A stretch of 64,000 bases of DNA from the NCBI RefSeq assembly GCF_011758655.1, contig NZ_JAAMPA010000002.1, forward strand, positions 1 to 64,000, in the 5' to 3' direction. Under the pieces are notes generated by a model. It worked only from the letters and a program-made list of their open reading frames with translations, did no database searches and was not told the origin of the DNA. The number at the start of each line of letters is the position of its first letter. The stretch's first letter is position 1. Made by a program: the position numbers and the translations under genes. This stretch comes from Modestobacter marinus (GTDB lineage Bacteria > Actinomycetota > Actinomycetes > Mycobacteriales > Geodermatophilaceae). Shown here in pieces: positions 15,766 to 46,119 of the stretch.

Positions 15766-17403
15766 TCAGGCCCCGGACACCGACGCCGCCGACGCCACCT
15801 GCGCCCCGAGGACGCCGGCGAGGACGGCCTCGGCGTCCACCGGCAGCGAGCCGCGCCAGGCGACGTGCTGGTCCGGGCGGACGAGGACCAGGTCGGCCCC
15901 GCAGGACTCCCGGAGGCCGGGGACGTGGTCGAGGTCCAGCACCCGCAGCGGGACGTCGTGCCGGGCGGCCGCCGTCGTGAACGCCTCGGCGGACACCGCG
16001 CGCCCCAGCCGCAGCAGGGTCAGCTCCTCGCCGAGCAGGTCGTAGAGCGAGCGCCCGTCCGGCAGCCAGGCGTGCGGCAGCCGGGCACCCGGGTGCGCCG
16101 AGGGGCGGAAGGCGACCAGCTCAGGCTCCGGCACGGGCAGGCCGTCGGGGACGACGACCGGGGAGTCGGGGTAGTCGTAGCCGAGCACCAGGCCGAGGCT
16201 GTGGAACTCCGGGTCCTTGACCTGCAGCGCCCGGGCCAGCGCGGCGCGCAGGGCGGCGCCCTCGGCGGTCTCGGCGTCCAGGTCGCCGGTGGCGAAGGAC
16301 GGCGCCAGGAAGGCCTCCTGTGCCCCGGCCGCGTCGATGGTCCGTTCCGCCACCGGCCGGCGCTCGGCCTCGTAGCTGTCCAGCAGGCACTCCGGTGCCC
16401 AGCCGTGCAGCACCGCGGCGAGCTTCCAGCCCAGGTTGACCGCGTCGCCCACGCAGGTGTTGAAGCCGTGCCCGCCCCACGGGGGGTTGAGGTGGGCGGC
16501 GTCCCCGACCAGGAACACCCGCTGGCCCCGGTACCGGTCGACCAGCAGCATCCGGGCCGACCAGGGGTCGGTGGCGAGCACCTCCACGTCGATCTCCGCG
16601 CCGGCCAGGCTCTGCACCAGCCGCACCGGGTCGACCTGCTCGGTCTCCGCGTCGACGCCCTGGACGATCGCCCACCACGTGCCGTCGAGGTCCAGCCGCC
16701 CCATCAGCCCGCCGCGCTCGGCGCCGATCACCCAGTAGTGCACGCCGAGGGCGCACAGCTCCCGTTCCTCCAGCTGGGGGGAGCGGAAGGTGATGCTCAC
16801 GTTCGGCAGGGTGCCGGAGGAGCCGGCGTACCGGGCCCCGATCGCCCGGCGGGTGACCCCGCTGCTGCCGTCGCAGCCCAGCAGCCAGTCCGCGGTGACC
16901 TCGTGCTGGCCGCCGTCCGGGTCCGCGAGCACCGCCCGCGCCTCGGTGGGCCCGTCGGTGACCTCGACGGCGCGCCAGCCGGTGAGGACGGTGACCGAGG
17001 CCAGCTCGGCGACGGCGTCCCGCAGGAGCTGCTCGACCAGTGGCTGCGGGGCCTGCTGGCCCGGCTCGGCGAACTCGTCCCGGCGCTCGGTGGTGAGCCC
17101 GAAGGCCTCCCGGAAGCGGGTGATCTCGTGCCCGAACAGGCCGGTGCAGAAGACGACGTCCTGCGCGTGCTCGACCGGCAGCGGGGCCAGCGCGCGCAGC
17201 CGGTCGGCCAGGCCCCAGCGGCGCAGGTGCTCCATGGTGCGCACGCTGGTGGTCTTGGCGCGGGGGCGGAGCGGGTCGAGCGAGGTGCGCGGTTCGACGA
17301 CGAGCACCTCGATGCCCCGCCGGCCGAGCTCCAGTGCGGCAGCCAGGCCGCTGGGCCCCCCGCCGGCGATCAACACCGGGACGCGGGCTGGCACGGCGGT
17401 CAT
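15766..17403 (-). CDS. FAD-dependent aromatic monooxygenase (PheA/TfdB type)
   Basis: 545-residue flavoprotein of the phenol/PHBH hydroxylase class, which uses NAD(P)H and oxygen to hydroxylate an aromatic ring. It has the FAD-binding VLIAGGGPSGLAAALELGRRG, the DG-type motif LLGCDGSSGVTR, and the GD motif FLVGDAAHLNPPWGGHGFN, followed by a thioredoxin-like C-terminal domain as in phenol and pentachlorophenol monooxygenases. The ATG at 17401-17403 follows AGGAG; the frame remains open upstream but without family similarity. A copy of the 17-bp island operator lies about 125 bp upstream. It probably acts on a phenolic released by the upstream enzymes, for example a phloroglucinol- or benzoate-type product; that assignment is inferred. 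Confidence 0.85.
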   Translation of the reverse strand: MTAVPARVPVLIAGGGPSGLAAALELGRRGIEVLVVEPRTSLDPLRPRAKTTSVRTMEHLRRWGLADRLRALAPLPVEHAQDVVFCTGLFGHEITRFREAFGLTTERRDEFAEPGQQAPQPLVEQLLRDAVAELASVTVLTGWRAVEVTDGPTEARAVLADPDGGQHEVTADWLLGCDGSSGVTRRAIGARYAGSSGTLPNVSITFRSPQLEERELCALGVHYWVIGAERGGLMGRLDLDGTWWAIVQGVDAETEQVDPVRLVQSLAGAEIDVEVLATDPWSARMLLVDRYRGQRVFLVGDAAHLNPPWGGHGFNTCVGDAVNLGWKLAAVLHGWAPECLLDSYEAERRPVAERTIDAAGAQEAFLAPSFATGDLDAETAEGAALRAALARALQVKDPEFHSLGLVLGYDYPDSPVVVPDGLPVPEPELVAFRPSAHPGARLPHAWLPDGRSLYDLLGEELTLLRLGRAVSAEAFTTAAARHDVPLRVLDLDHVPGLRESCGADLVLVRPDQHVAWRGSLPVDAEAVLAGVLGAQVASAASVSGA

Positions 17404-17525
17404 CGGGGTCTCCTGTCCTGGGCAGCAGCGCCCAGTGGGTGGGAAGAGGGGGGGAGGGCGTCGGTCGTGCGGGCCGCTCGACGCCGGTCCAGCATCGGTG
17501 GCGGCCGTCACGTCCCCGTAGCCCG

Positions 17526-17542
17526 ATGTCATTGAGCGGCAG
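17526..17542. promoter_or_regulatory. Island operator copy A (IclR-type site)
   Basis: ATGTCATTGAGCGGCAG matches CTGCCATTGRGCGGCAG at 15 of 17 positions. It lies between the DUF3500 gene and the FAD monooxygenase start, so the monooxygenase probably has its own regulated promoter as well as read-through from upstream. Confidence 0.6.
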
Positions 17543-17560
17543 AGCGAGACGGGATCGTCT

Positions 17561-18811
17561 TCAGGACCCGTGCGCCGCCTGCCACTGCCGGACCCAGGCC
17601 CGGCCGTAGTCGTTGCCGTGCGGGGTGCGCAGCACCGTGTGCACGTGGAAGGGCTGCGGGGTGGAGTAGTCGAGGAAGACGCCGCAGTGGTGGTCCAGCT
17701 CGGCGATCAGCACCGGGGACTGGACCCGGTAGTAGAAGACGTCGCCGGGGGAGTGGCCGCCGATCCAGCTGAACCAGGTCTCGTCCAGGTGCTCGGCCAC
17801 CTCGCGCAGGCGGGCCCGGCGGGGGCCCTCGGGGAGCAGGCCGACGAACTGCTCGACGATCCTCAGCACCTCGTGCTGCGCCTCCGGCGGCATCCCCGCG
17901 ACCGGGACGCCCTCCAGCGGGATGACCCGGTTGTCCTGGAAGGCGCCGGCCAGGTGGCGCTCGTCGCCGGGGTGCACCCGGCCCGGCGGCATCGCCGGGT
18001 CGACCATCTCGCGGTAGGTGGTGGCCGCGGCCCGCTGCTCGGGGGGCAGGGCGGCCATCACCGCCAGGCCCGCGGCGATCCGCTCGCCGAACGGCGACGC
18101 GGTGCCGGCGTGCGGGCCCTCGTCGATCTCGTCGGGTTCGGCGCCGAGGAAGACCGGGGACAGCGACATCCGGCCCTCGACGACCAGGCAGTTGACCGCG
18201 GCGTGGTGGCCGAACAGCTGCCACCCCCACGGCGCACGCAGGTCCGGGTCGCCGTAGAGGGCGATGTTGTAGCTCCACTCGCCCAGCACCGTCGGCAGGT
18301 CGACGACCTCGCCCAGGAAGCCGTTGATCAGCATCATGGCGTGGACGAGGTCGGCGCCCTCCGGTGACAGCGAGGCCCGCACCAGGGCCAGTGCCTTCGC
18401 CCGCACCTGGGCCGGCTGGAACTCCAGCCGCAGGCCGGTGTCGAACTGCATGAACTCCGGGTTCGCCCAGGTCTGCCACTCGACGGCGTCGACCGGGGAG
18501 CTGATCCGCGCCCGCCCGTCGTCGTCCAGCGCGGCCAGGAGGTCGGCGGCGGCGGCGACCATCGCGGCGACCGGCGCCTCCTCGCCCGGCTCGGCGGGGG
18601 TCAGCGGGTACAGCCCCTCGCGCAGGACGCCGTCCTCGGTGACCCCGCGGAAGTCGGCGAGGTACAGCGGCGTCCAGCCCTCGACCAGCCCGCCGGTGAA
18701 GGTGCCCGGCGTCCGGGCGTGCTCCCGGTAGGCGTAGGCGTCCAGCCCGCGGACGCCGGCCAGCCGCGGGTGGTCGTGCGGGAAGAGGTACCGGCGGAAC
18801 TCACCGGACAC
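17561..18811 (-). CDS. DUF3500-domain protein
   Basis: 416-residue cytoplasmic protein that I place in the uncharacterised DUF3500 family from its motifs: LYLADFRGVTEDG, LINGFLGEVVDLP, GEWSYNIALYGDPD, WGWQLFGHHAAVNCLVV, GRMSLSPVFLGAEP, and the C-terminal WIGGHSPGDVFYYRVQSPVLIAELDHH. It is rich in His, Glu and Asp clusters that could hold a metal, but no catalytic motif is established. It overlaps the FAH-family gene by 11 bases, which ties it to the same pathway, and it lacks a signal peptide. It may carry an unassigned step of flavonol or phloroglucinol-type breakdown. Confidence 0.8.
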   Translation of the reverse strand: MSGEFRRYLFPHDHPRLAGVRGLDAYAYREHARTPGTFTGGLVEGWTPLYLADFRGVTEDGVLREGLYPLTPAEPGEEAPVAAMVAAAADLLAALDDDGRARISSPVDAVEWQTWANPEFMQFDTGLRLEFQPAQVRAKALALVRASLSPEGADLVHAMMLINGFLGEVVDLPTVLGEWSYNIALYGDPDLRAPWGWQLFGHHAAVNCLVVEGRMSLSPVFLGAEPDEIDEGPHAGTASPFGERIAAGLAVMAALPPEQRAAATTYREMVDPAMPPGRVHPGDERHLAGAFQDNRVIPLEGVPVAGMPPEAQHEVLRIVEQFVGLLPEGPRRARLREVAEHLDETWFSWIGGHSPGDVFYYRVQSPVLIAELDHHCGVFLDYSTPQPFHVHTVLRTPHGNDYGRAWVRQWQAAHGS

Positions 18812-19667
18812 CGCGGGCAGCCTCTCCCCGTGCGGAGTTCCCGACGACGGTGTTCCGCAGCACGCCCAGGTGGTCCACCTCGACCTCGACGACGTCGCCG
18901 GGTTGCAGCAGCCACGGCGGCGTCCGGGCGTAGCCGACCCCCGACGGCGTGCCGGTGGCCAGCAGGTCGCCGGGGCGCAGCGTGAACGTCCGGGAGATCA
19001 GGGAGAGGGTGTCGCCGACGGTGTAGACCATCTCGTCGGTGCGCCCGTCCTGGACGGTCTCGCCGTTGACCCGGGTCTGCACCCGCAGGCCCTCGCGCAG
19101 GTCGCCGACCTCGGCGGCCGGCACGAGCGGCCCGAGCGGGCCGGAGCGGTCGCCGTTCTTGCCGAGGATCCACTGGCTGGTCAGCTTCTGCGCCCGCCGC
19201 GAGGTGAGGTCGTTGAAGGTGGAGTAGCCGACGACGGCGGCCAGTGCGTCCTCGGGGGTGGCGTCGACCAGGGTGCTGCCCACGTAGGCCACCACCTCGC
19301 CCTCCCAGTCCAGCCCGTCCTCCTCGGCCGGCACCGGCACCTCGGCGCCGTCCACGGTGAGCGAGGCGGTCCAGCGGGCGAACAGCGTCGGGTAGGGCGG
19401 GATCTCCTGGCCGGCGAAGCTGCCCTCGGCGACGTGCTTGAGGTAGTTCAGCCCGATGCAGACCACCCGGGCGCCGGGCAGCACCGGCGGCACGAACTCG
19501 ACGTCGGCCGCAGCGAGCGTCTCCCCGCCGGGCTCGCGGGACAGGTGCCCGGCGGCGTCGGTCCAGAAGTCCTCCAGTCCGGCCACGACGGTGACCGAGG
19601 CGCCGTCGTCGGAGAGCGCGGCGACCTGCACCCCGCCGCCGTCCCGGCGGATGCCGACTGTCCTCAT
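18801..19667 (-). CDS. Fumarylacetoacetate-hydrolase-family enzyme
   Basis: 288 residues with the FAH catalytic fold, which uses a divalent metal to cleave C-C bonds in beta-diketo or acylpyruvate compounds, or to decarboxylate or isomerise ring-cleavage products. The core shows CIGLNYLKHVAE, PTLFARWTASL, the metal-ligand segment GLDWEGEVVAYVG, GYSTFNDLTSRRAQ, LGKNGDRSGPLGP and ATGTPSGVGYARTPPWLLQPGD. ATG 19665-19667 has AAGGAGA upstream. It overlaps the preceding hydrolase gene by ATGA and the DUF3500 gene by 11 bases. In this operon it may act on an open-chain product of an aromatic ring. Confidence 0.9.
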   Translation of the reverse strand: MRTVGIRRDGGGVQVAALSDDGASVTVVAGLEDFWTDAAGHLSREPGGETLAAADVEFVPPVLPGARVVCIGLNYLKHVAEGSFAGQEIPPYPTLFARWTASLTVDGAEVPVPAEEDGLDWEGEVVAYVGSTLVDATPEDALAAVVGYSTFNDLTSRRAQKLTSQWILGKNGDRSGPLGPLVPAAEVGDLREGLRVQTRVNGETVQDGRTDEMVYTVGDTLSLISRTFTLRPGDLLATGTPSGVGYARTPPWLLQPGDVVEVEVDHLGVLRNTVVGNSARGEAARGVR

Positions 19668-20575
19668 GCCCGGTCTCCTTCGTCGATCAGGTGGCGCCGC
19701 AGGAAGGCGACGGTGCGGGCCAGCGCGTCGGTGGCCGCGTCCGGGGCGCCGAGCCACATGTGGTCGGCGCCGTCGTAGGTGTGCAGCTGCACGTCGGGCA
19801 GCAGTCCGGCCAGCCGCTCGCTCTGCACGCAGGGGACGAACCGGTCGGCCCGGCCGTGCAGCAGCAGGAACGGCGGTGCGCTGGGGGAGGCGTGTGTGAG
19901 TGGGCCGGCCTGCGCGGCCAGCTCGGGGACGGTGGACACCGGCGCACCGAGCAGCTGCGCCTCGCGGCTGTCCGGGGCGGCGGGGTCGTTGCCGATGTCG
20001 GTCGCCACCGCCGCGACGTCGCTCGGTGCGTACCAGGCGGCCACGGCGGAGACCGCGGACGACGGGCCGGTGACGCCGACCTCGCCCTCGAGGGCGGGGT
20101 CGGTCACCAGGCCCAGCAGCTCGGCCAGGTGGCCGCCGGCCGACTCCCCCCAGGCGGCGACCCGGTCGGCGTCGACCCCCAGCTCGGCGGCGCGGGAGCG
20201 CAGCCACCGGACGGCGGCCTTGGCGTCGTGCAGCTGCGCCGGCCACACCGCCTCCCCCGACAGCCGGTAGTCGACGCTGGCCACGGCGACCCCGGCCTGG
20301 GCGACGGCCTCGAACGGCGTCGGGTCCGCCTCCCGGTAGGCCGGCCCCGCGCTGCGCCGGCTGCCCAGCCGCCACCCGCCGCCGTGCAGGAACACCACGA
20401 CCGGTGCCGGGCCGTCCTCGGCCGGGAGGTACAGGTCGAGCTCGAGCGGCCGGGCGCCGGGCAGTGCCGCGAAGGGCACGCCGGACAGCACCCGGACGCC
20501 GCCGGCCCCGGTGCGGGGCGGGGGCAGGGGCGCCTCGTGGGCGGGTGGTGGGAGCGGGAGGGCAGGCGTGGGCAC
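19664..20575 (-). CDS. Alpha/beta hydrolase (esterase), BD-FAE/carboxylesterase type
   Basis: 303-residue serine hydrolase. It has the oxyanion-hole HGGGWRLGS, the nucleophile elbow GESAGGHLAELLGL, VDYRLSGEAVWPAQLHDAKAAVRW, LLHGRADRFVP carrying the acidic residue and GADHMW with the His. It starts at GTG with GAGGAGACCC just upstream. It is a clear paralogue of the esterase at 32903-33829 (shared VTGPSSAV segment). Position after the quercetinase-like cupin suggests it could split the depside product of flavonol cleavage into protocatechuate- and trihydroxybenzoate-type acids; this is a hypothesis. Confidence 0.87.
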   Translation of the reverse strand: MPTPALPLPPPAHEAPLPPPRTGAGGVRVLSGVPFAALPGARPLELDLYLPAEDGPAPVVVFLHGGGWRLGSRRSAGPAYREADPTPFEAVAQAGVAVASVDYRLSGEAVWPAQLHDAKAAVRWLRSRAAELGVDADRVAAWGESAGGHLAELLGLVTDPALEGEVGVTGPSSAVSAVAAWYAPSDVAAVATDIGNDPAAPDSREAQLLGAPVSTVPELAAQAGPLTHASPSAPPFLLLHGRADRFVPCVQSERLAGLLPDVQLHTYDGADHMWLGAPDAATDALARTVAFLRRHLIDEGDRA

Positions 20576-20595
20576 GGGTCTCCTCAGGGCGCGCT

Positions 20596-20624
20596 CCCGC
20601 AGCCGAGGGGGCCTCGGCTGCGGG
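20596..20624 (-). terminator. Hairpin between the cupin and esterase genes
   Basis: CCCGCAGCCGAG (20596-20607) pairs with CTCGGCTGCGGG (20613-20624), 12 bp with one further inner pair and a 3-base loop. It sits in the only sizeable gap (72 bp) of the minus-strand operon, so it could be a partial terminator that makes the cupin mRNA more abundant than the downstream genes. Confidence 0.6.
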
Positions 20625-20647
20625 GGAGGTGCGGTGGGCGGCGCGGG

Positions 20648-21208: not shown

Positions 21209-21281
21209 GGGGTGCTCCCGGTTCGGTGTCGACGTTGACGGTGCCGAGCCTCGGTGACCGGTGTCACCGCGGCCCAGCGAG

Positions 21282-21298
21282 CTGCCATTGGGCGGCAG
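21282..21298. promoter_or_regulatory. Island operator copy B (perfect consensus)
   Basis: CTGCCATTGGGCGGCAG has perfect CTGCC and GGCAG arms and is identical, in the opposite orientation, to copy E at 39709-39725. It lies between the end of the GH1 gene and the start of the cupin gene, where it would control the cupin operon. Confidence 0.68.
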
Positions 21299-21303
21299 GC
21301 GGA

Positions 21304-22478
<1,175 letters not shown>

Positions 22479-22482
<4 letters not shown>

Positions 22483-23459
22483 GCCGCCACCTCCAGGGTC
22501 TCGGGAGTGCGGGCGGTGGCGACGACGTCGGCCATCAGGGTCAGCGTGGAGTCGACCGGCTCGAGGTCCGGCCGGGTGTTGAGGAAGCCGTGCAGCATCC
22601 CGACGGCGGTGACCTGCCGGACGTCGACGCCGGCCAGGGCGAGCTGCGCGACGAACGCCTCGCCGGAGGAGCGCAGGTCGTCGTACTCGGCGTTGACCAC
22701 CAGCGTCGGGCAGAGCCCCTCCAGGACGGCGAGCGCGCCGAAGGCGTAGCCGTCGGCCGACGACAGCGGCCCGCCCAGGTAGTTGGTGTTGAAGGAGTGG
22801 GTGTCCTCCGGCAGGAAGCGCAGCAGCGCCGGGACCTCGGCCATCCGTGCGGCGAGGGCTGGCGAGGCCGGGGGCAGCACTGCGTGGGCCACCGGGTAGA
22901 TCGGCAGCAGCGCGGCCGGCGGCTCCCCGTCCTCGTCGCGCAGCTTCAGTGCCGCCCCGATGGCGAGGTTGCCACCGGCGCTGGCGCCGCCCAGGGACAG
23001 CCGCGTCGGGTCGATCCCCAGCGCGTCCGCGTTCTCGCGGGTCCACCGGAACGCGGCCACCACGTCGTCGTACGGCACCGGGTGGTGCACGCCGTCGTGG
23101 CACAGCCGGTAGTCGACGCTGACCACGACCGCGCCGGCGCGGTCGGCCATCTGCCGGGCGGTCCAGTCGGCCTCGGGCATGTCCAGGTCCCCGCTGACGA
23201 ACGCGCCCCCGTGCAGCCACACCAGGCCCGGCCGGTCGGTGGCGTCCCCCGCGGGCAGGTAGACCCGGACCGGGATCGAGCCGTGCGGGCCGTCGATCGT
23301 CTCGTCCCTGGTGCGCACCTGCGGCGGGAGGGGGGCGCCGGTGATCGACATGAACTCGTCCAGGCGGGCCCGCTGGTCCGGGTCGGCCATCGCCGTCTCG
23401 AAGGAGGTCAGTCCCTCCAGCAGAGCGAGCTTCGACGCGATGGCGGGGTGGATCGGCAC
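22479..23459 (-). CDS. HSL-family alpha/beta hydrolase (esterase)
   Basis: 326-residue esterase of the hormone-sensitive-lipase class. It has the oxyanion motif WLHGGAFVSGD, the nucleophile motif GGASAGGNLAIG, Asp in VNAEYDDLR and His in GMLHGFLNT. The start is GTG at 23459, with GAGGAG eight bases upstream; an upstream in-frame extension has no family similarity. It is the first gene of a two-gene unit with the GH1 gene and has island operator copy C 65 bp upstream. It may remove acyl groups from plant glycosides so the GH1 enzyme can act; the substrate is not shown. Confidence 0.9.
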
Positions 23460-23523: not shown

Positions 23524-23540
23524 CTGCCGGTCAATGGCAG
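23524..23540. promoter_or_regulatory. Island operator copy C
   Basis: CTGCCGGTCAATGGCAG is the consensus in the opposite orientation with one change (16 of 17 on the complementary strand) and perfect CTGCC/GGCAG arms. It is just after the IclR gene and 65 bp before the esterase start. Confidence 0.66.
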
Positions 23541-23550: not shown

Positions 23551-24357
23551 TCAGGGCGTCGCGGGGGCCCGCCAGGCGCCGAGCCCTCGGGAGATGCCCC
23601 GCGCGGCCGTGCGCACCGCCGGGCCGAGCAGTCGTGGTTCGGCGTTCTCCGCCGGGACGACGACCGACAGCGCGGCGACGACGGTGCCCTGGGCGTCGTG
23701 CACGGGGGCGGCGACGGAGACGATCGGCCCCGGGGCGGCGCGGCGGAGGGTGGACAGCCCGTCCCGCCGGATCTCGGCCAGGGTGCGGCGGAGCGCAGCG
23801 GGGGAGACCGGGACGTTCTCCGGCTGGTGCATCAGCGGCTGGGCCAGCACCTCCTCCTGGAACCCGGGTTCGGCGAACGCCAGCAGCACCAGCCCCACCC
23901 CCGTGGAGTGCAGCGGCAGCCGCCCGCCCGCCCGGTACAGGGCGGGGACGGCGCCGTGCGAGGACAGCCGCTCCACCATCACCGCCTCCTCGCCCTCCCG
24001 GACGGCGAGCAGCACGTGCTGCCGGGTCACCTCCTCCAGGTCGCCCATGAACGGCAGGGCCACCTGGCGCAGCCCGTGGCTGCGCGGGCTCAGCGACGCG
24101 ACCTCCCACAGCCGCAGCCCGATGGAGAAGCGGCCGTCGGCGCCGCGCTCGAGGGCCCCCCACTCCAGCAGCCGGCCGGCCAGGCGCAGTGCCGAGCTGG
24201 CTGGGATCCCCGTCCGCCGGCTGAGCTCGCTGAGGGTCAGGTACGGCCGGTTGCTGTCGAAGGCGCTCAGCAGGGCGAGCGCCCGGTCGACGACGGGGTC
24301 CCCGGCCGGCGGGCGGTGGCCGCGGGCGCGGGGCGGCGCACCAGGGACCCCGGTCAC
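23551..24357 (-). CDS. IclR-family transcriptional regulator
   Basis: 268-residue regulator. The winged helix spans about residues 20-85 (VVDRALALLSAFDSNRPYLTLSELSRRTGIPASSALRLAGRLL in pieces; SSALR is the recognition helix), and the effector domain follows (QHVLLAVREGEEAVMVERL, LPLHSTGVGLVLLAF, GLSTLRRAAPGPIVSVAAPV). IclR proteins often sense aromatic or sugar acids and control catabolic operons. It is divergent from the ABC transporter operon, with an operator copy in the shared promoter region, indicating both autoregulation and control of the transporter. The GTG start has no good Shine-Dalgarno sequence, so the exact N-terminus is uncertain. Confidence 0.9.
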   Translation of the reverse strand: MTGVPGAPPRARGHRPPAGDPVVDRALALLSAFDSNRPYLTLSELSRRTGIPASSALRLAGRLLEWGALERGADGRFSIGLRLWEVASLSPRSHGLRQVALPFMGDLEEVTRQHVLLAVREGEEAVMVERLSSHGAVPALYRAGGRLPLHSTGVGLVLLAFAEPGFQEEVLAQPLMHQPENVPVSPAALRRTLAEIRRDGLSTLRRAAPGPIVSVAAPVHDAQGTVVAALSVVVPAENAEPRLLGPAVRTAARGISRGLGAWRAPATP

Positions 24358-24403: not shown

Positions 24404-24420
24404 GTTCCATTGAGCGGCAT
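24404..24420. promoter_or_regulatory. Island operator copy D, divergent iclR/ABC promoter
   Basis: GTTCCATTGAGCGGCAT matches CTGCCATTGRGCGGCAG at 14 of 17 positions, including the central CCATTGAGCGGCA. It is 47 bp upstream of the IclR start and 116 bp upstream of the binding-protein start, so it can serve both. Confidence 0.62.
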
Positions 24421-26141: not shown

Positions 26142-26176
26142 GGCCGGTGACCGCGGGGCCTCCGCGGTCACCGGCC
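26142..26176 (+). terminator. Intra-operon hairpin after the binding-protein gene
   Basis: GGCCGGTGACCGCGG (26142-26156) pairs perfectly with CCGCGGTCACCGGCC (26162-26176), a 15-bp stem with a GGCCT loop. Such hairpins after binding-protein genes commonly cause partial termination or protect the upstream mRNA. Confidence 0.75.
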
Positions 26177-37949: not shown

Positions 37950-38806
37950 CCGGGTCCCTGCGCATCACCGAGCGGTGCCGCGTCGTCGTCGACAACGACT
38001 GGGCCGGTGACCCCGACGGGCTCGTCGCCCTCGCCCACCACCTGCTCAGCGCCGCCAACCGGGTGGTCGCGGTGACCAGCTCGCACCTGAGCCCGGTGTT
38101 CGGCCCGCCCGCGGGCGGGGCGGCCGCCGGGACGGCCCTCGCCCAGCAGCTGGTCGACCTGGTGGACGGGCCGCACCGGCCGGTCGTGGCCAGCGGGTGC
38201 GACGTGCCGATCGACGGCGGCGACACCCGTTCCGGGGCCGCCGACGTCATCGTGGCGGAGGCCCGGCGGGAGGACCCGCTGCCGCTGTTCCTGGTCTGCG
38301 CCGGCCCGCTGACGAACGTGGCCCAGGCGCTGCGGCAGGCGCCGGAGATCGCCCAGCGGCTCACCCTGGTCTGGGTCGGCGGGGCGCTCGACGGCGGGGC
38401 CTTCGAGTACAACCGGGAGACCGACGCGCAGGCCGCGCGCGAGGTGCTGGCCTGCCGGGACCTGGCCATCTCGCAGTTCCCGCTGGAGACCTACCGCCGC
38501 TGCACGTACTCCGTCGCCGAGCTGGAGCAGGACCTGGGCGGCTCGGGCCGGGTGGGCGCCTGGCTGTGGCAGCGCTACGTCGAGCTGCCGGTCCCCGACT
38601 TCCTCCCGCAGCCGGAGACCTGGCCGCTCGGCGACAGCCCGCCGGTCCTGGTCACCGCGCTCGACGACGCTGCCTGCTCGTGGACGGAGTCCCTCGTGGC
38701 GCCGGGTGGTGCGGTCCGCCGGGTCTGCACCGACGTGGACACCCGCCTGCTCGTCGCCGACCTGCTGGCCCGGCTCCGGCGGCACGAACGCCGGCAGGGG
38801 AGCTGA
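37946..38806 (+). CDS. Nucleoside-hydrolase-like protein
   Basis: 286-residue member of the inosine/uridine-preferring nucleoside hydrolase superfamily. The N-terminal metal/ribose motif is VVVDNDWAGDPDGLVAL, a variant of DTDxGxDD, and there are FLVCAGPLTNVAQAL and LVWVGGALDGGAFEYNRETDAQAA, which match the calcium-binding and substrate segments. In sugar-degradation clusters such proteins may act on ribosides or on other N- or O-glycosides; purine salvage is not indicated by neighbours. It is the last gene of the transporter operon, coupled by GTGA to GH43, and is followed by a terminator. Confidence 0.82.
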   Translation: MTGSLRITERCRVVVDNDWAGDPDGLVALAHHLLSAANRVVAVTSSHLSPVFGPPAGGAAAGTALAQQLVDLVDGPHRPVVASGCDVPIDGGDTRSGAADVIVAEARREDPLPLFLVCAGPLTNVAQALRQAPEIAQRLTLVWVGGALDGGAFEYNRETDAQAAREVLACRDLAISQFPLETYRRCTYSVAELEQDLGGSGRVGAWLWQRYVELPVPDFLPQPETWPLGDSPPVLVTALDDAACSWTESLVAPGGAVRRVCTDVDTRLLVADLLARLRRHERRQGS

Positions 38807-39708: not shown

Positions 39709-39725
39709 CTGCCGCCCAATGGCAG
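39709..39725. promoter_or_regulatory. Island operator copy E (perfect consensus)
   Basis: CTGCCGCCCAATGGCAG is the exact reverse complement of copy B. It is 69 bp upstream of the SDR start and 174 bp upstream of the GH2 start. Confidence 0.68.
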
Positions 39726-39898: not shown

Positions 39899-42307
39899 AT
39901 GCGCCGCACCCCGTTCACCACCGGCTGGCAGTTCCGGCCGCACGCCAACCACTTCGCCGAGATCAACGGCGCAGGCCAGTCCTGGCAGGACGTGACCCTG
40001 CCGCACGACGCGACGCTCGGTCAGCCGCGGGACGCCGCGCACGGCCCGGGCACCGCGTACTTCCCCGGTGGCGTCTACGAGTACCTCACCACGGTCGCCG
40101 CACCGGGGGAGTGGCGCGACCGGGTGGTGGCGCTGGAGTTCGAGGGCGTCTACCGCTCCGCGCAGGTGTTCGTGAACGGCAGCCTGGCCGGGCAGTGGGC
40201 GACCGGGTACACCCAGTTCACCGTCCCGCTGGACGACCACCTCCGGTACGGGCAGGACAACGAGGTGCGGGTGGTCTGCCGCAGCCACGCCGACTCCCGC
40301 TGGTACGCAGGCGCCGGCATCCACCGCCCGGTGCACCTGCTCGTCGGCCCGCTGGTGCACCTCGCCCAGGACGGCGTCACGGTCACCACCGAGCAGGTCG
40401 ACGGTGGCGTCGCCGTCGTCGGCGTGGCGGCCACGGTGGCGCACGCCGGCCGGGGCCTGGCCCACCGGGAGCTGGTCATCGAGCTGCGCGACGCCGCCGG
40501 CACGGTCGTCGGGACGGGGACCTCGCCGGTCACCGTGCTGCCCGGGGAGCCGGCGGTGGTCCGGCAGCGGTTCCTCGTCCGGGACGCCGCGCTGTGGAGC
40601 CCCGACTCGCCCGCGCTGTACACCGCCGCCGTCGTCCTGCGCGACGGTGCGGCCGAGACCGACGCCGAGGACGTCCGCTTCGGGATCCGCACCCTGTCGC
40701 TGGACCTGGAGCGGGGCCTGCGGGTCAACGGCGAGACGGTGCTGCTGCGCGGCGCGTGCGTGCACGCCGACAACGGCGTGCTCGGCGCGGCCGCGATCGA
40801 CCGGGCCGACGAGCGGCGGGTGGAGCTGCTCCAGGCCGCCGGGTTCAACGCGCTGCGCAGCTCGCACGGACCGATGCCCCGGGCGATGCTCGACGCCTGC
40901 GACCGGCTGGGCGTGCTGGTGATGGACGAGCTCACCGACATGTGGACGGAGAACAAGACCGACTTCGACGCCGCCCTCGACTTCCCGCAGTGGTGGGAAC
41001 GCGAGGTCGCGGCGATGGTCGCCAAGGACCGCAACCACCCCAGCGTGGTCATGTACTCGATCGGCAACGAGATCCCGGAGCTCGCCAAGCCGCACGGCGG
41101 GCTGTGGTCCCGGCGGCTGGCCGAGGCGGTCCGCGCACTGGACGGCACCCGGTTCGTCACCGCCGGCATCAACGCGATGCTCACCGTGCTGGGCGAGGCC
41201 CGGGGCCCCGAGGGCGTCGAGGCCGGGATCAACACCGCGCTCACCGACATGGGCGAGTTCATGGAGCACCTGTCGGTGTCGTCGATGGTCGGCGAGCGCA
41301 CCGCGGAGGCCTACGACGTCCTCGACGTGGCCGGGATGAACTACATGGAGGCCCGCTACGAGCTGGACCGGGAGCTGTTCCCGCGGCGGGTGATCGTCGG
41401 TTCGGAGACCTTCGCGCAGAAGATCGACCGGCTCTGGCGGCTGGTGCAGGACCACCCGCACGTCATCGGTGACTTCACCTGGACCGGGTGGGACTACCTC
41501 GGCGAGGTCGGCATCGGCCGGGCCTGGGACACCGCGGACCCGGCCGCGGCCGGCTTCAGCGGCGCGTTCCCGTGGCTGCTGGCCTGGTGCGGCGACATCG
41601 ACGTCACCGGGCACCGCCGCCCGGCCTCCTGGTACCGGGAGATCGTCTTCGGGCTGCGCCGCGACCCCTACCTGGCGGTGCAGCGGCCGGAGCACTCCGG
41701 CCGGACCTGGGGCTCGACCCCCTGGGGGTGGGCCGACACGGTGGGCAGCTGGAGCTGGGCCGGCGCCGAGGGCACGCCGCTGGAGGTGGAGGTCTACAGC
41801 GACGCCGAGGAGGTCGAGCTGCTGCTGGACGGGCGCTCGCTGGGCACCGCACCGGCGGGGGAGGCCCACCGGTTCCGCGCCGAGTTCGCGGTGCCCTTCG
41901 CCCCGGGTGAGCTCACCGCGGTCGCCCGCACCGGCGGCCAGGAGACGGGCCGGTTCTCCCTCCGCACGGCGACCGGGGACGTGCGCCTGGCGGCCGCCGC
42001 CGACCGGGACGTCGTCCGGGCCGACGGGACCGACCTGGCGTACGTCGACCTGTCCCTGACCGACGCCGACGGCACGGTGTTCACCGGCGTCGACCGGGTG
42101 GTGACCGTCGTCGTCGAGGGGCCGGCCGTGCTGGCCGGGTTCGGCAGCGCCGCGCCGTCCACCACCGAGTCCTACCTCGACGACGTGCACACCACCTTCG
42201 ACGGCCGGGCGCTCGCCGTCGTCCGCCCGACCGGCCCCGGGACGATCACACTGACCGCGACGGCGGAGGGCTGCGCACCCGTCGCGGTGACGGTCCAGGC
42301 GCACTGA
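39899..42307 (+). CDS. GH2 family glycosidase (beta-galactosidase-like)
   Basis: 802-residue intracellular GH2 enzyme. It has the jelly-roll and Ig domains of the family (WQDVTLPHDATLG, FEGVYRSAQVFVNGSLAGQWATGYT in pieces), the barrel with acid/base Glu in YSIGNEIPE and nucleophile Glu in IVGSETFA, and a C-terminal DUF4982-like/Ig region with TPWGWADTVGSWSWAG and GFGSAAP. The type is beta-galactosidase or beta-glucuronidase-like; the exact sugar is not certain. ATG 39899 has no strong Shine-Dalgarno sequence except GAGAGG. There is no signal peptide. Confidence 0.9.
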   Translation: MRRTPFTTGWQFRPHANHFAEINGAGQSWQDVTLPHDATLGQPRDAAHGPGTAYFPGGVYEYLTTVAAPGEWRDRVVALEFEGVYRSAQVFVNGSLAGQWATGYTQFTVPLDDHLRYGQDNEVRVVCRSHADSRWYAGAGIHRPVHLLVGPLVHLAQDGVTVTTEQVDGGVAVVGVAATVAHAGRGLAHRELVIELRDAAGTVVGTGTSPVTVLPGEPAVVRQRFLVRDAALWSPDSPALYTAAVVLRDGAAETDAEDVRFGIRTLSLDLERGLRVNGETVLLRGACVHADNGVLGAAAIDRADERRVELLQAAGFNALRSSHGPMPRAMLDACDRLGVLVMDELTDMWTENKTDFDAALDFPQWWEREVAAMVAKDRNHPSVVMYSIGNEIPELAKPHGGLWSRRLAEAVRALDGTRFVTAGINAMLTVLGEARGPEGVEAGINTALTDMGEFMEHLSVSSMVGERTAEAYDVLDVAGMNYMEARYELDRELFPRRVIVGSETFAQKIDRLWRLVQDHPHVIGDFTWTGWDYLGEVGIGRAWDTADPAAAGFSGAFPWLLAWCGDIDVTGHRRPASWYREIVFGLRRDPYLAVQRPEHSGRTWGSTPWGWADTVGSWSWAGAEGTPLEVEVYSDAEEVELLLDGRSLGTAPAGEAHRFRAEFAVPFAPGELTAVARTGGQETGRFSLRTATGDVRLAAAADRDVVRADGTDLAYVDLSLTDADGTVFTGVDRVVTVVVEGPAVLAGFGSAAPSTTESYLDDVHTTFDGRALAVVRPTGPGTITLTATAEGCAPVAVTVQAH

Positions 42308-42322
42308 CCGGTCGAGACCCGT

Positions 42323-42360
42323 CCCGCTGCGGTGTCCGCCTCGGGGGACACCGCAGCGGG
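42323..42360 (+). terminator. Terminator after the GH2 gene
   Basis: CCCGCTGCGGTGTCC (42323-42337) pairs with GGACACCGCAGCGGG (42346-42360), a 15-bp stem with an 8-base loop, flanked by further CGAGAC/GTCTCG pairing. Confidence 0.8.
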
Positions 42361-42396
42361 GCGCGTCTCGATGTGGGAGCTGGCTACGGTGCTGGC

Positions 42397-42975
42397 ATGA
42401 CGGACGTGGTGCAGCCCTGGGGCGCCGGCGAATGGACGACGCCGCCGGTCGCGGCCACCGAGGACGGCGACGACCTGCTGGTCACCGCGGTCGAGGGCAG
42501 CGACGCGTGGCGGCACACCAGCTACGGGTTCGTGCACGACGACGCGCACGCCCTGCTCGCGCCGCTCGACGGTGCGGTCGAGGTGACCTTCGACGCCGAC
42601 CTCGACCAGCAGTTCGACCAGGCGGGGCTGATGCTGCGGGCCGACGCGGAGACCTGGCTGAAGAGCGGCGTCGAGTTCTCCGACGGCGCCCCGCAGCTGG
42701 GCGCGGTGGTCACCCTCGGCCGCTCCGACTGGTCGGTGGCGCCGGTGCCGGACTGGGCCGGCCGCCGGGTGACCGTGCGGGCCAGCCGGGCAGGGGACGC
42801 CGTCACCGTCCGGGCCCGGGTGGACGACGAGCCGTTCCGGCTGGTCCGGGTGGCCTGGTTCCCGCCGGACGCCGAGGTGCACGCCGGCCCCTACTGCTGC
42901 GCGCCCACCCGGGCCGGCCTCGTCGTCCGCTTCCGTCGCTGGGCCACCGGCCCGGCCGACGCCGCCCTGCACTGA
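42397..42975 (+). CDS. DUF1349-family protein
   Basis: 192-residue concanavalin-like beta-sandwich protein of the DUF1349 family (yeast regulation of enolase 1 group). Typical motifs are DAWRHTSYGFVHDDAHALL, FDQAGLMLRADAETWLKSGVE in pieces, and AGPYCCAPTRAGLVVRF. These proteins often accompany glycoside hydrolases and may bind sugars, but a catalytic role is not established. The ATG at 42397 follows a weak ribosome site. It lies between GH2 and GH3 on the same strand. Confidence 0.8.
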   Translation: MTDVVQPWGAGEWTTPPVAATEDGDDLLVTAVEGSDAWRHTSYGFVHDDAHALLAPLDGAVEVTFDADLDQQFDQAGLMLRADAETWLKSGVEFSDGAPQLGAVVTLGRSDWSVAPVPDWAGRRVTVRASRAGDAVTVRARVDDEPFRLVRVAWFPPDAEVHAGPYCCAPTRAGLVVRFRRWATGPADAALH

Positions 42976-43026
42976 ACAGCCCCGGGCTGGACGGCCCTGC
43001 ACCGGACAGTGCTGCGCCGAGCCGTC

Positions 43027-43043
43027 CTCCCGCTGGATGGCAA
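43027..43043. promoter_or_regulatory. Possible weak island operator before GH3
   Basis: CTCCCGCTGGATGGCAA, read on the opposite strand, matches the 17-bp consensus at 13 of 17 positions and lies 42 bp upstream of the GH3 start. It is a weak but well-placed match. Confidence 0.32.
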
Positions 43044-43084
43044 GGCGGCCGACGCCGTGGTCGGGGGCTCGGCAGGATCGACGG

Positions 43085-45331
43085 GTGACCCCCACCACCC
43101 CGCTCGACCCGACCGCGCTGCCGCTCGAGCAGAAGGCGGCGCTCCTCTCCGGCCAGGACTTCTGGTCCACCCCGCCCGTCGAGGCCGCCGGCCTCCCGTC
43201 GGTGGTGCTCACCGACGGCCCGCACGGCGTCCGCCGCCAGGTGGGCGACCTGGACCAGATCGGGCTGCTGGAGAGCGTGCCGGCCACCTGCTTCCCGCCG
43301 GCGGTCGCGGTCGGCTCCAGCTGGGACCCGGAGGTGGCCGAGCGGATCGGTGCGGCGATCGGGGTCGAGGCGCGCGCGATCGGCGTCCCCGTCGTCCTCG
43401 GGCCCGGGGTGAACATCAAGCGGTCACCACTGTGCGGGCGCAACTTCGAGTACTACTCCGAGGACCCGCTGCTGGCCGGGGTGCTGGGCGCCGCGCACGT
43501 CCGCGGCCAGCAGGACGCGGGCGTCGGGGCCTCGGTGAAGCACTTCGCGGCCAACAACCAGGAGACCCAGCGCATGCAGGTCAGCGCCGACGTCGACGAG
43601 CGCACGCTGCGCGAGATCTACCTGCCGGCGTTCGAGCGGGTGGTCACCGAGGCGCAGCCGGCGACGGTGATGTGCGCCTACAACAAGGTGAACGGCGTCT
43701 ACGCCTCCCAGAACCGCTGGCTGCTCACCGAGGTGCTGCGCGAGGAGTGGGGCTTCGCCGGCGCCGTCGTCTCCGACTGGGGCGCGGTCGACGACCGGGT
43801 CGCCGCCCTGGAGGCGGGGCTGGACCTGCAGATGCCCGGTGACCACGGTGCCGGCAACGCCCTCGTCGTGGACGCCGTCCGCACCGGGCGGCTGGACGAG
43901 GCCGTCGTCGACCGCAGCGTTGCCCGGGTGGCGGCGCTGGCCGGGTACGTCACCGAGCCGGCCCATGCCGCCGACGTCGCTGCCTTCGACGCCGACGCCC
44001 ACCACGCGCTGGCCCGCGAGCTGGCGGCCGGCTGTGCGGTGCTGCTGAAGAACGACGGCGGCGCGCTGCCCCTGGCCGCCGGGCAGCGGGTCGCGGTCGT
44101 CGGCGAGTTCGCCCGGACCCCGCGTTTCCAGGGCGGCGGCAGCTCGCACGTCAACGCCACCCGGGTCGACGACGCGCTCACCGCGCTCACCGCCGCCCAC
44201 CCCGGCGTCGCCTTCGCGGCCGGGTTCACCCTCGACGGCTCCGGGGACGTCGCCGCGCTGCGGGACGAGGCGGTCGAGCTGGCCCGGGACGCCGATGTCA
44301 CCGTGGTGTTCGCCGGGCTGGCCGAGAGCGACGAGTCCGAGGGCTTCGACCGCACCCACCTGGACCTCCCGGCGGCCCAGGTGCAGCTGATCCGCGCCGT
44401 GGCCGCGGTCGCCCCGCGGACGGTCGTGGTCCTCTCCTCCGGGAGCGTGGTCTCCCTGGAGGGCTGGCACGACGACGTCGACGCGGTGCTCGCCGGGTTC
44501 CTGCTCGGCCAGGCCGGCGGCAGCGCGCTGGCCGACCTGCTCACCGGTGCTGCCGACCCGTCGGGACGGCTGGCCGAGACCATCCCCCTGCGCCTGCAGG
44601 ACACCCCCAGCTGGCTGAACTTCCCGGGGGAGCAGGGGCACGTCCGCTACGGGGAGGGCGTGATGGTCGGCTACCGGCACCACGTGACGACCGGCACCCC
44701 GGTGCGCTACCCGTTCGGTCACGGGCTGAGCTACACGACGTTCGAGACGAGCGACCTGCAGGTCACGGCCACCGGCGCGGACAGCGCGGAGGTCGCCGTC
44801 ACGGTGACCAACACCGGCGGACGCACCGGCCGGCACGTCGTCCAGGTGTACGTGGCGACCAGCGCCGGACCGGTCCGGCGGCCCGCCCGCGAGCTGCGCG
44901 CCTTCGGCAAGGTGTCGTTGGCGCCGGGGGAGTCCCGGACGGTGACGTTCGCGCTGGACCGCCGGGCGTTCGCCTACTGGGACGTGCGCGAGTCCGGCTG
45001 GGTGGTGGCGCCGGGGGAGCACACCGTCCAGGTCGGCCGCAGCGCCGCCGACGTGGTGGCCGAGGCGAGCCTGACGCTGGCCGGCGACGAGATCGTCCCG
45101 GAGCTCACCCTGCAGTCCTCGGTCGCCGAGTGGTTCGAGCACCCGGTGGCCGGGCCGCAGCTGCTCGAGGGGTTCCTGGCGACCATGCCGGAGGGCGCTG
45201 CGGAGATGCACGCCGGGATGCTGCAGATGATCGGGTCCATGCCGATGCGCCGGTTCGCGGCCGACTTCGGCGCGGCGATCCCCACCGACGAGCTGGAACG
45301 GCTCATGGCGGCCGCGCGGGCCGCCCGGTGA
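43085..45331 (+). CDS. GH3 family beta-glucosidase/xylosidase
   Basis: 748-residue GH3 enzyme. The N-terminal barrel has LTDGPHGVR, GPGVNIKRSPLCGRNFEYYSED in pieces, VKHFAANNQETQRM and nucleophile Asp in VVSDWGAV; the alpha/beta sandwich domain has VVFAGLAESDESEGFDRTH in pieces; the C-terminal fibronectin-III-like domain has RPARELRAFGKVSL. There is no signal peptide. The start is GTG. It is coupled to the SGNH hydrolase by GTGA, and a weak operator match is present upstream. It would remove terminal beta-glucose or xylose. Confidence 0.92.
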   Translation: MTPTTPLDPTALPLEQKAALLSGQDFWSTPPVEAAGLPSVVLTDGPHGVRRQVGDLDQIGLLESVPATCFPPAVAVGSSWDPEVAERIGAAIGVEARAIGVPVVLGPGVNIKRSPLCGRNFEYYSEDPLLAGVLGAAHVRGQQDAGVGASVKHFAANNQETQRMQVSADVDERTLREIYLPAFERVVTEAQPATVMCAYNKVNGVYASQNRWLLTEVLREEWGFAGAVVSDWGAVDDRVAALEAGLDLQMPGDHGAGNALVVDAVRTGRLDEAVVDRSVARVAALAGYVTEPAHAADVAAFDADAHHALARELAAGCAVLLKNDGGALPLAAGQRVAVVGEFARTPRFQGGGSSHVNATRVDDALTALTAAHPGVAFAAGFTLDGSGDVAALRDEAVELARDADVTVVFAGLAESDESEGFDRTHLDLPAAQVQLIRAVAAVAPRTVVVLSSGSVVSLEGWHDDVDAVLAGFLLGQAGGSALADLLTGAADPSGRLAETIPLRLQDTPSWLNFPGEQGHVRYGEGVMVGYRHHVTTGTPVRYPFGHGLSYTTFETSDLQVTATGADSAEVAVTVTNTGGRTGRHVVQVYVATSAGPVRRPARELRAFGKVSLAPGESRTVTFALDRRAFAYWDVRESGWVVAPGEHTVQVGRSAADVVAEASLTLAGDEIVPELTLQSSVAEWFEHPVAGPQLLEGFLATMPEGAAEMHAGMLQMIGSMPMRRFAADFGAAIPTDELERLMAAARAAR

Positions 45332-46119
45332 CCCGCTACGTCGCGCTCGGCAGCTCGTTCGCCGCCGGCCCGGGCATCGAGCCGATCCTGGACCCCGGGT
45401 GCGCCCGCTCGGGTGGCAACTACCCGCACCTGGTCGCCGAGCGCCTCGGGTACGACCTGGTCGACGTCACCTCGGGCGGGGCGACGATCGACGACGTCCT
45501 CACCCGGCCGCAGGCGCTGCTGGCCGGCGGCACCGTGCCGCCGCAGGTCGACGCGGTCGGCCCGGACGCCGACCTGGTGACCGTGACCGTCGGCGGCAAC
45601 GACGTCGAGTACCTGCTCACCCTGCTGCGCTGCTCGTCCCGGGCCGACCCGGAGGGCACCCCGCTGCCGGCCCGGGCGTTCTTCGGCACCCCGATCGACC
45701 CGGCCGCGGTGCACGCCGCGCTGGCCGTGCTGCCGGGCCGGCTGGCGGGGCTGGTCGGCGAGGTCCGCCGCCGGGCACCGCGGGCCCGGGTGGTGCTGGT
45801 CGACTACCTGACCGTGGTGCCGGACCGGGCCACCCCCGCCTTCCCGATGAGCGAGGAGCACCGCCTGCTCTGCGCCGACGTCGGCCGGCGGCTGGAGGCG
45901 GCCACCGCCGCCGCTGCGCGGGACAGCGGCGCCGAGCTGGTGGCGGCCTCGGCCGTCTCCCGGGACCACGCCGTCGGCTCGGCGGACCCGTGGGTCACCG
46001 GCTGGGTCTTCGGTGACCTGCTCGGCGGCGGGGTGGCGCCCTACCACCCGAACGCCGCCGGGATGCGCGCCGTCGCCGACCTGCTGACCGACCGGCTCAC
46101 CGCCGCACCCGTGTCCTGA
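45328..46119 (+). CDS. SGNH/GDSL hydrolase (esterase)
   Basis: 263-residue esterase. Block I is GSSFAAGPG with the Ser nucleophile, block III GGND and block V YHPNAAG (the Asp of the usual DxxH is replaced by Tyr, and His remains). It starts at GTG overlapping the GH3 stop, without a secretion signal, so it may remove acyl groups from imported oligosaccharides or phenolic glycosides. Confidence 0.87.
   Translation: MTRYVALGSSFAAGPGIEPILDPGCARSGGNYPHLVAERLGYDLVDVTSGGATIDDVLTRPQALLAGGTVPPQVDAVGPDADLVTVTVGGNDVEYLLTLLRCSSRADPEGTPLPARAFFGTPIDPAAVHAALAVLPGRLAGLVGEVRRRAPRARVVLVDYLTVVPDRATPAFPMSEEHRLLCADVGRRLEAATAAAARDSGAELVAASAVSRDHAVGSADPWVTGWVFGDLLGGGVAPYHPNAAGMRAVADLLTDRLTAAPVS

Follow-up and report, generated by a model that had tools for sequence, protein, structure and literature searches.

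A candidate IclR-controlled island for flavonol-glycoside use in Modestobacter marinus, with a predicted bacterial route through tetrahydroxybenzene

The island and its quercetinase-like cupin

The window analysed here, a whole stretch of 64,000 nucleotides from the start of contig NZ_JAAMPA010000002.1 of Modestobacter marinus (G000:C2:1-64000 of a 5.1-Mb genome; GC content of the window, 75%), contains an island of genes that runs from an FAD monooxygenase gene at 15766 to a GDSL esterase gene ending at 46119. A first-pass annotation, made from the letters of the sequence, had reported a quercetinase-like cupin, glycosidases, esterases, an ABC importer, a FAH hydrolase, an FAD monooxygenase, a DUF3500 protein and an IclR regulator at this place, and had proposed that they serve the catabolism of plant flavonol glycosides. 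Genes were called here by codon usage and their proteins were matched to Pfam, with NCBIfam used on ten proteins and three more, and all of the claimed families were confirmed above Pfam cut-offs (Table 1). Three genes missing from the earlier list encode a nucleoside-hydrolase-like protein, an SDR dehydrogenase and a DUF1349 protein. Judged from these sequences, the island likely functions in flavonol-glycoside catabolism.

The cupin was compared with the PDB using phmmer, and its top matches were Streptomyces QueD (5fli/5flh, 6e-42) and the Bacillus quercetinase YxaG (1e-41). QueD and Bacillus quercetinases together ranged from 6e-42 to 3.5e-40, followed by a fungal quercetinase at 4e-16 and by other cupins at 5e-10 and weaker. 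Identity to QueD was 41% (67 of 164 aligned residues). The metal ligands of QueD are H69, H71, E76 and H115, according to the available part of a paper on this enzyme (PMC4416304). They align with H72, H74, E79 and H118 of the window cupin, a 3His/1Glu set that all 29 named relatives share with it. On this alignment evidence the cupin is a QueD-type quercetinase homologue. Quercetinases release CO and a depside, 2-protocatechuoyl-phloroglucinol carboxylate.

A BD-FAE hydrolase gene follows the cupin gene on the same strand within 400 bp in 28 of the 29 named loci, and in the remaining one (L049) the contig ends. Its start in the window was first called at 20491, while the reading frame is open to 20575 with a GTG start, which is likelier. 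On a Streptomyces plasmid, an alpha/beta hydrolase gene (49% identical) overlaps a gene annotated as quercetin 2,3-dioxygenase (42%); no such esterase was found at E 1e-6 in two plasmid records with a cupin of 37-41% identity (L194, L195). The pairing of cupin and esterase looks old, and this fits hydrolysis of the depside as the likely role of the BD-FAE esterase. Neither "gene cluster" nor "esterase" occurs in the accessible portion of the one QueD paper searched for these words (PMC4416304). The gap between the two genes also holds a strong GC-rich inverted repeat (20597-20623), and another lies between the solute-binding protein (SBP) and permease genes (26142-26176); such repeats may be attenuators or RNA-stability elements.

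At 10 of 18 same-strand joints in the island, neighbouring genes share 4 or 11 bp. A divergent promoter of 178 bp separates the IclR gene from the importer, and a second one lies between the SDR and GH2 genes. The closest named relatives of the cupin are found in Modestobacter first, followed by Geodermatophilus, Blastococcus and Klenkia, and a search for the same gene set elsewhere, which the first-pass annotation had suggested as a check, recovered the set and much of its order in these four genera and, rearranged, in Nocardioides bruguierae. Since the joints overlap so often and gene set and order recur in relatives, a chance pile-up of genes was ruled out. Among 13 chosen genomes, the right-arm genes GH78b, GH43 and GH3 were present in 12, 11 and 10, respectively, with one GH3 miss being a stretch end.

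The DUF3500 module and its distribution

Beyond the esterase, the left arm of the island encodes the FAH hydrolase, the DUF3500 protein and the FAD monooxygenase. In an alignment of 56 DUF3500 proteins (55 homologues and the window protein; five rows had been removed, namely L146 as a duplicate, L166 as overlong and three of less than 300 aa), residues Y181, H202, H203, W349, Y360, H389, H391, R395 and D401 were invariant and E371 was conserved in 98%, and a second alignment of 20 proteins agreed on the conserved residues. H374, H375 and C376 mark a close subfamily (32 proteins, identity at least 60%). This residue pattern suggests a metal site. DUF3500 matched no second Pfam family at E values up to 10, and its sole relative found in the PDB by sequence was Amc20 (9x86), which scores 248 bits against the family profile. 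Among papers matching the name Amc20, the 20 listed of 73 were unrelated. The NCBIfam family of the monooxygenase, NF004780, bears only the name "hypothetical protein". We propose from these sequences that the monooxygenase is a 2,4,6-trihydroxybenzoate or phloroglucinol hydroxylase yielding 1,2,3,5-tetrahydroxybenzene (THB), that DUF3500 is the enzyme cleaving the THB ring, and that the FAH hydrolase is an acylpyruvase acting on the cleavage product.

The 29 named cupin loci, examined within flanks of up to 10 kb, hold the FAD monooxygenase (24), FAH (21), DUF3500 (20), IclR (27), GH1 (21) and SBP (20) genes. In all 20 distinct cupin loci with DUF3500, FAH was no more than 3 kb and the monooxygenase no more than 6 kb away (21 of 21 rows before L146, a duplicate of L043, was dropped). 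The comparison of DUF3500 loci covers 64 loci, and its 300-bit cut was set after the scores were known. Where DUF3500 reached at least 300 tblastn bits and the cupin was not nearby, FAH (at least 100 bits, within 3 kb) was present at 15 of 19 loci and the monooxygenase (within 6 kb) at 9, or at 7 with a stricter 250 bits; among weaker DUF3500 loci (below 300 tblastn bits), neither FAH within 3 kb nor the monooxygenase within 6 kb, each at 100 bits or more, was found at any of 24. At least six of the 19 cupin-less loci come from genomes that carry the cupin elsewhere (L144, L145, L189-L192), and two others (L128, L129) carry the whole trio in genomes without a cupin match (G300, G202), so the trio forms a module that can move independently of the quercetinase. 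Since FAH and monooxygenase are absent near them, members of the distant subfamily seem to work in another setting, and a single function for all DUF3500 proteins was rejected. One distant locus, L166, has a 33% identical FAH gene about 5 kb away. This second subfamily (L147-L166) is widespread in the order, and Corynebacterium glutamicum also carries a DUF3500 gene.

Co-occurrence was counted in 397 genomes of the order, of which 28 had the cupin at 69% identity or more and 39 had DUF3500 above 300 bits to PF12006, a cut set once the scores were known. DUF3500 above this cut was present in 27 of 28 cupin genomes (the lone exception being G164) and in 12 of 369 others (Fisher p 2e-31, ignoring shared ancestry). 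DUF3500 of any kind occurred in 145 of the 397 genomes, and in 26 of 396 in a phylum-wide sample. Nine of the 29 cupin loci had no DUF3500 gene in the stretch, one of them (L049) at a contig end. In Klenkia terrae (L056) it lies elsewhere in the genome, beside FAH (L144). Four further genomes (L063, L064, L066, L067) likewise have DUF3500 above 300 bits elsewhere, in three cases beside a strong FAH match; the copy in the L067 genome is only 47% identical, and in N. bruguierae (L066) the DUF3500-FAH pair is on the contig of the cupin cluster, about 7 kb past the stretch first examined.

More remote relatives were found on plasmids. At 40% identity, those in Paraburkholderia, Thioclava and Rhodococcus have FAH genes close by, and those in Streptomyces chartreusis (40%) and Sphingomonas (28%) do not. 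On a plasmid of Paraburkholderia sprentiae, from a root nodule, the DUF3500 gene (40%) stands between two FAH genes (L211:6159-9253), with a cupin-domain gene, an FAD-dependent oxidoreductase and a maleylacetate reductase nearby; this set is possibly a proteobacterial version of the pathway. In Rhodococcus qingshengii RL1, a DUF3500 gene and an FAD hydroxylase have close locus-tag numbers, according to the part of the source available (PMC8416521).

In Pseudonocardia kunmingensis (L065), the cluster is ordered as IclR, intradiol dioxygenase, FAH, FAD monooxygenase, transporter, cupin and esterase, and the genome has one DUF3500 gene, of the distant kind (258 bits). The nearest PDB entries to the intradiol dioxygenase (L065:5218-6075) are 6-chlorohydroxyquinol and hydroxyquinol 1,2-dioxygenases, and its NCBIfam scores are under every cut-off. 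THB is 6-hydroxy-hydroxyquinol. Given the resemblance to hydroxyquinol 1,2-dioxygenases, the place of the missing DUF3500 is occupied by a ring-cleaving enzyme of a known type, and in this one genome the dioxygenase is possibly a natural replacement of DUF3500; its presence would also be explained by a hydroxyquinol route from protocatechuate.

Operator-like sites and the remaining genes

Comparing the promoters of relatives exposed a shared motif of 15 bp, TGCCRNYCAATGRMA, which has five exact copies in the 5.1-Mb genome. All are in the island, at the promoters of the monooxygenase, the cupin, Abhydrolase_3, IclR/importer and SDR/GH2 (Table 1). The pattern TGCCGCYCAATGRMA has four exact matches in the genome, also all in the island, and its two one-mismatch matches are another island site and a site inside a reading frame. 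With three mismatches allowed, 9 matches were seen in the window against 6.3 expected; by number alone such a loose search is not significant, and weight is given only to exact and one-mismatch matches. The motif was discovered in the same promoters where it was counted, and the independent evidence lies in the lack of matches elsewhere and in the copies found at cupin-less modules.

Over 23 genomes of the genus, TGCCRNYCAATGRMA had 43 exact matches, of which 39 lie within 20 kb of the cupin in 10 cupin genomes. The other four are two on other contigs of G383 (one adjoining its DUF3500 gene), one at the cupin-less module of G300 and one in the draft genome G787; the reversed pattern had no match in the 23 genomes. 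Across the 29 named loci, the motif with up to three mismatches was found upstream of the cupin in 26, in the IclR/importer promoter in 20 of 20 tested, and upstream of the monooxygenase in 18 of 25. Six of the 19 cupin-less loci with close DUF3500 have an IclR homologue of at least 56% identity, and the motif is present in four of these six. It is absent, even at one mismatch, from the 24 distant-DUF3500 loci and from 19 kb around the protocatechuate (pca) genes. That the motif marks five promoters and has no further exact copy in the genome supports one IclR-type regulon, in line with the earlier claim that the genes stand under one regulator, and we infer from this pattern that the IclR protein binds it.

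The SBP has a lipoprotein-like N-terminus, and a simple hydropathy test found in no glycosidase of the island a hydrophobic N-terminal stretch of signal-peptide strength; glycosides thus probably enter the cell intact and lose their sugars there. Genes about as long (662-680 aa) as the permease-ATPase fusion stand at the same place in five relatives (L039, L047, L053, L062, L066). Both GH78 proteins contain the full domain set of that family (PF25788, PF08531, PF05592, PF17389, PF17390), and neither attains NCBIfam equivalog cut-offs; GH1 scores 226 against TIGR03356, below the cut-off of 478.5. The Abhydrolase_3 esterase could be either a deacylase of acylated glycosides or a lactone hydrolase. 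The nucleoside-hydrolase-like gene, within the glycosidase operon, recurs at the same spot in several relatives. Near the cupin, a sugar-acid dehydratase was found in 8 of the 29 named loci, a DHDPS-type aldolase in 9 and an arabinose isomerase in 2, genes which point to use of the released sugars. IlvD/EDD-type dehydratase and DHDPS-type aldolase genes stand beside the cupin at L041:7308-9872 and at L047:7367-9862 and 17616-19124, and L047 also has AraA.

Outside the window, the genome encodes pcaH, pcaG, pcaD and pcaC above NCBIfam cut-offs and a pcaB just under its own (351 against 355.75), and a relative of 4-hydroxybenzoate hydroxylase adjoins these genes. In Modestobacter muralis (L039), pcaH (88%) and pcaG (79%) adjoin the flavonol genes. 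The pcaHG pair of that locus is flanked by genes whose N-termini match pobA, IclR and pcaB of the window genome, the whole group lying at L039:15461-20332. Form I CO dehydrogenase was considered as the enzyme that would consume the released CO, and was dropped: the best CoxL-like protein scores 722 bits against a cut-off of 991 and has the motif AYRGAGR, which we take to be that of form II CoxL. Its gene (G000:C1:1618239-1620539) lies between two smaller genes and probably does not encode a form I CO dehydrogenase.

Table 1. Genes and operator-like sites of the island (positions in the window)
Feature	Position	Strand	Basis
FAD aromatic hydroxylase/monooxygenase	15766..17403	-	PF01494 234 bits, PF21274; NF004780 598 bits (cut-off 445)
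Operator-like site TGCCGCTCAATGACA before FAD monooxygenase	17527..17541	-	motif match
DUF3500 protein	17561..18811	-	PF12006 332 bits
FAH-family hydrolase	18801..19667	-	PF01557 215 bits; 11-bp overlap with DUF3500
BD-FAE alpha/beta hydrolase	19664..20575	-	PF20434 182 bits; GESAG serine motif
QueD-type monocupin, putative flavonol dioxygenase (quercetinase), 186 aa	20648..21208	-	PDB matches QueD, YxaG; metal ligands
Operator-like site TGCCGCCCAATGGCA before cupin	21283..21297	-	motif match
GH1 beta-glucosidase-like, 392 aa	21304..22482	-	PF00232 215 bits; catalytic TINEP and VTENG motifs
Abhydrolase_3 esterase	22479..23459	-	PF07859 151 bits; own operator-like site upstream
Operator-like site TGCCGGTCAATGGCA between IclR and Abhydrolase_3	23525..23539	+	motif match
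IclR-family regulator	23551..24357	-	PF01614 96 bits (effector domain), PF09339 (HTH)
Operator-like site TGCCGCTCAATGGAA in IclR/SBP divergent promoter	24405..24419	-	motif match
Family-5 SBP, ABC importer	24536..26128	+	PF00496 197 bits
ABC permease	26226..27167	+	PF00528 112 bits
ABC permease-ATPase fusion, 674 aa	27164..29188	+	PF00528, PF00005, PF08352
ABC ATPase	29185..30231	+	PF00005 117 bits
GH78 alpha-L-rhamnosidase a	30264..32906	+	PF17389 351 bits
BD-FAE esterase 2	32903..33829	+	PF20434 191 bits
GH78 alpha-L-rhamnosidase b	33826..36462	+	PF17389 401 bits; PDB 6gsz 772 bits, full length
GH43 glycosidase	36459..37949	+	PF04616 257 bits
Nucleoside-hydrolase-like protein	37946..38806	+	PF01156 58 bits
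SDR dehydrogenase, 250 aa	38888..39640	-	PF13561 175 bits on shorter call (start 39574); frame open to 39640
Operator-like site TGCCGCCCAATGGCA in SDR/GH2 divergent promoter	39710..39724	+	motif match
GH2 glycosidase	39899..42307	+	PF02836, PF18565
DUF1349 protein	42397..42975	+	PF07081 201 bits
GH3 glycosidase	43085..45331	+	PF01915, PF00933
GDSL esterase	45328..46119	+	PF13472 85 bits

Proposed pathway, alternatives and related systems

We read the island as an IclR-controlled regulon for aerobic flavonol-glycoside use that would include a bacterial THB route, and give this reading a probability of roughly two in three. In the pathway that we infer, the ABC importer would take up the intact glycoside, and cytoplasmic GH78, GH1, GH2, GH3 and GH43 enzymes, together with esterases, would strip rhamnose, other sugars and acyl groups. 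The cupin would then open the flavonol C-ring, giving CO and the depside, which the adjoining BD-FAE esterase would split into protocatechuate and 2,4,6-trihydroxybenzoate. Protocatechuate would be passed to the pcaHGBDC enzymes encoded elsewhere in the genome. The FAD monooxygenase would produce THB, either by hydroxylating 2,4,6-trihydroxybenzoate with loss of CO2 or by hydroxylating phloroglucinol. Cleavage of THB by DUF3500 between neighbouring hydroxyls would yield 2,4-dihydroxymuconate, a tautomer of 2,4-dioxoadipate, so that the simplest product is 2,4-dioxoadipate or its hydroxydienelactone; 2,4-dioxoadipate is an acylpyruvate, the type of substrate used by the FAH family, and its hydrolysis by FAH would most simply give pyruvate and malonate. 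IclR would govern the five promoters through TGCCRNYCAATGRMA and would probably be relieved by an aromatic intermediate.

The flavonol-glycoside part of the first-pass annotation is thus supported by a QueD-like cupin with its 3His/1Glu ligands and by the fit of import with cytoplasmic deglycosylation. That annotation had ended the pathway in protocatechuate- and phloroglucinol-type products; these are probably not the end products, since protocatechuate would feed the pca genes and the phloroglucinol half looks to be opened through THB. With DUF3500 as the ring-opener, a probable bacterial THB route is the best reading of the sequence evidence, which is indirect but converges. We lean, by a little, towards a broader proposal, in which DUF3500 represents a new class of metal-dependent aromatic ring-cleavage dioxygenase, and its close subfamily would form, with the FAD hydroxylase and FAH, the aerobic route still lacking for the phloroglucinol ring in flavonoids. 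This route would be common to fungi and bacteria and be transferred as a module, with an unrelated dioxygenase of the hydroxyquinol type occasionally taking its place.

Several observations weigh against the proposed regulon and its THB route. No form I CO dehydrogenase was recognised in the genome for using the released CO. Modestobacter sp. Leaf380 (L060) has the cupin and esterase and no DUF3500 at all, Pseudonocardia nigra (L061) has only distant DUF3500 genes, and in Klenkia terrae, Thermocatellispora and at least two Nocardioides genomes DUF3500 and the cupin are found at separate places. Of the 19 close-DUF3500 loci that have no cupin nearby, only four (L128, L129, L145, L191) carry an exact copy of the motif; two others (L138, L190) do not have it despite an IclR homologue of at least 56% identity, and the P. 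kunmingensis stretch lacks it too. At two mismatches, the motif occurs 33 times in the genome and the reversed pattern 37 times, so there is no excess. The likeness between bacterial and fungal DUF3500 proteins is known from their shared Pfam family alone, and in fungi, too, the catalysis is still a proposal, as stated in the available part of a 2025 review (PMC12388069).

Flavonol glycosides might also be degraded with the phloroglucinol half leaving as phloroglucinol or being handled elsewhere, FAH then serving rhamnose breakdown by hydrolysis of 2,4-diketo-3-deoxyrhamnonate, and DUF3500 and the monooxygenase being unrelated tailoring enzymes. The island has two GH78 rhamnosidases, the dehydratase and aldolase counts given above agree with such a route, and FAH matches the rhamnonate-pathway hydrolase NF053535, a point which also tells against our own assignment, at 144 bits, far from passing the cut-off of 500. 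However, FAH keeps its place beside DUF3500 in 15 of 19 cupin-less loci while a GH78a homologue lies within 12 kb in only one of them, the monooxygenase bears the same motif as the cupin, and the trio equals the THB set reported for fungi. We consider this alternative unlikely. It is also conceivable that a plant cell-wall locus for pectin or hemicellulose side chains lies by chance beside an aromatic cluster, with the glycosidases acting on oligosaccharides. GH43, GH2, GH3, GH78 and acetyl-esterase-like genes are generally common in such loci, and the SBP passes no NCBIfam cut-off, its best-named matches being binders of glutathione, nickel and oligopeptides. The motif nevertheless occurs both at aromatic genes and at the promoters of GH2 and the importer, 2 of 3 Nocardioides loci have GH78 homologues near the cupin and 1 has the importer there, and glycosidase order is kept in most of the 13 chosen genomes, which makes a chance neighbourhood distinctly improbable.

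The least probable of the explanations weighed is that the substrate of the cupin is a different 3-hydroxy aromatic heterocycle, for example an alkyl-hydroxyquinolone or other plant phenolic, and that the downstream pathway differs. Its modest identity to QueD would allow this, and cupins are generally known to switch substrate easily; yet the metal ligands are kept in 30 of 30 proteins, the gene is accompanied by glycosidases and by a paired esterase, which a depside product would call for, and a module of trihydroxybenzoate type follows. Under the preferred reading, a flavonol-glycoside regulon with a THB route, the locus offers a complete pathway that can be tested gene by gene, assigns a likely role to DUF3500, a family without known function, and yields a sharply defined operator from which the regulon can be predicted. 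Both litter and root exudates are rich in flavonols, and to our knowledge it is not settled how aerobic bacteria handle the phloroglucinol half after quercetinase.

A literature search turned up no paper describing either a THB pathway in bacteria or a flavonol cluster in actinobacteria, which is weak evidence of absence because most subscription papers are outside its coverage. The fungal THB pathway "currently seems restricted to fungi" in the accessible part of a 2026 paper (PMC13094099), and the present locus would add Actinomycetota, and perhaps proteobacterial plasmids, to its range. The DUF3500 protein AN10530 of A. nidulans has been proposed to turn THB into 5-hydroxydienelactone, according to the portion available of the 2025 review (PMC12388069); the 2026 paper, too, gives the role proposed for fungal DUF3500.

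Among known systems, QueD of Streptomyces (PDB 5flh, 5fli, 5flj) is like the window cupin in being a monocupin, of 186 aa in the window, with 3His/1Glu ligands, and differs in that the two are only 41% identical. The strain behind these structures is presumably Streptomyces sp. FLA. The pca operon, built around protocatechuate 3,4-dioxygenase, is the expected taker of the B-ring half; unlike the island, it lies outside the window and its surroundings are free of the motif. Amc20 keeps the GHH, E and HxH residues of DUF3500 but, with 297 aa, is unlike the window protein. Hydroxyquinol and 6-chlorohydroxyquinol 1,2-dioxygenase routes likewise open a polyhydroxybenzene ring, and P. kunmingensis has a relative of these enzymes, whereas DUF3500 matches no intradiol dioxygenase family in Pfam. 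A further parallel is with fungi: a 2024 study by Martins is said to describe, in A. terreus and A. nidulans, a cluster of a monooxygenase, a FAH-like gene, DUF3500 and a short conserved protein, the last reportedly acting on 5-hydroxydienelactone, with 2,4,6-trihydroxybenzoate reportedly named as a related substrate. Monooxygenase, FAH and DUF3500 also stand together in the window at 15766-19667, but here the set is bacterial and is joined to a quercetinase homologue, glycosidases, an importer and an IclR regulator.

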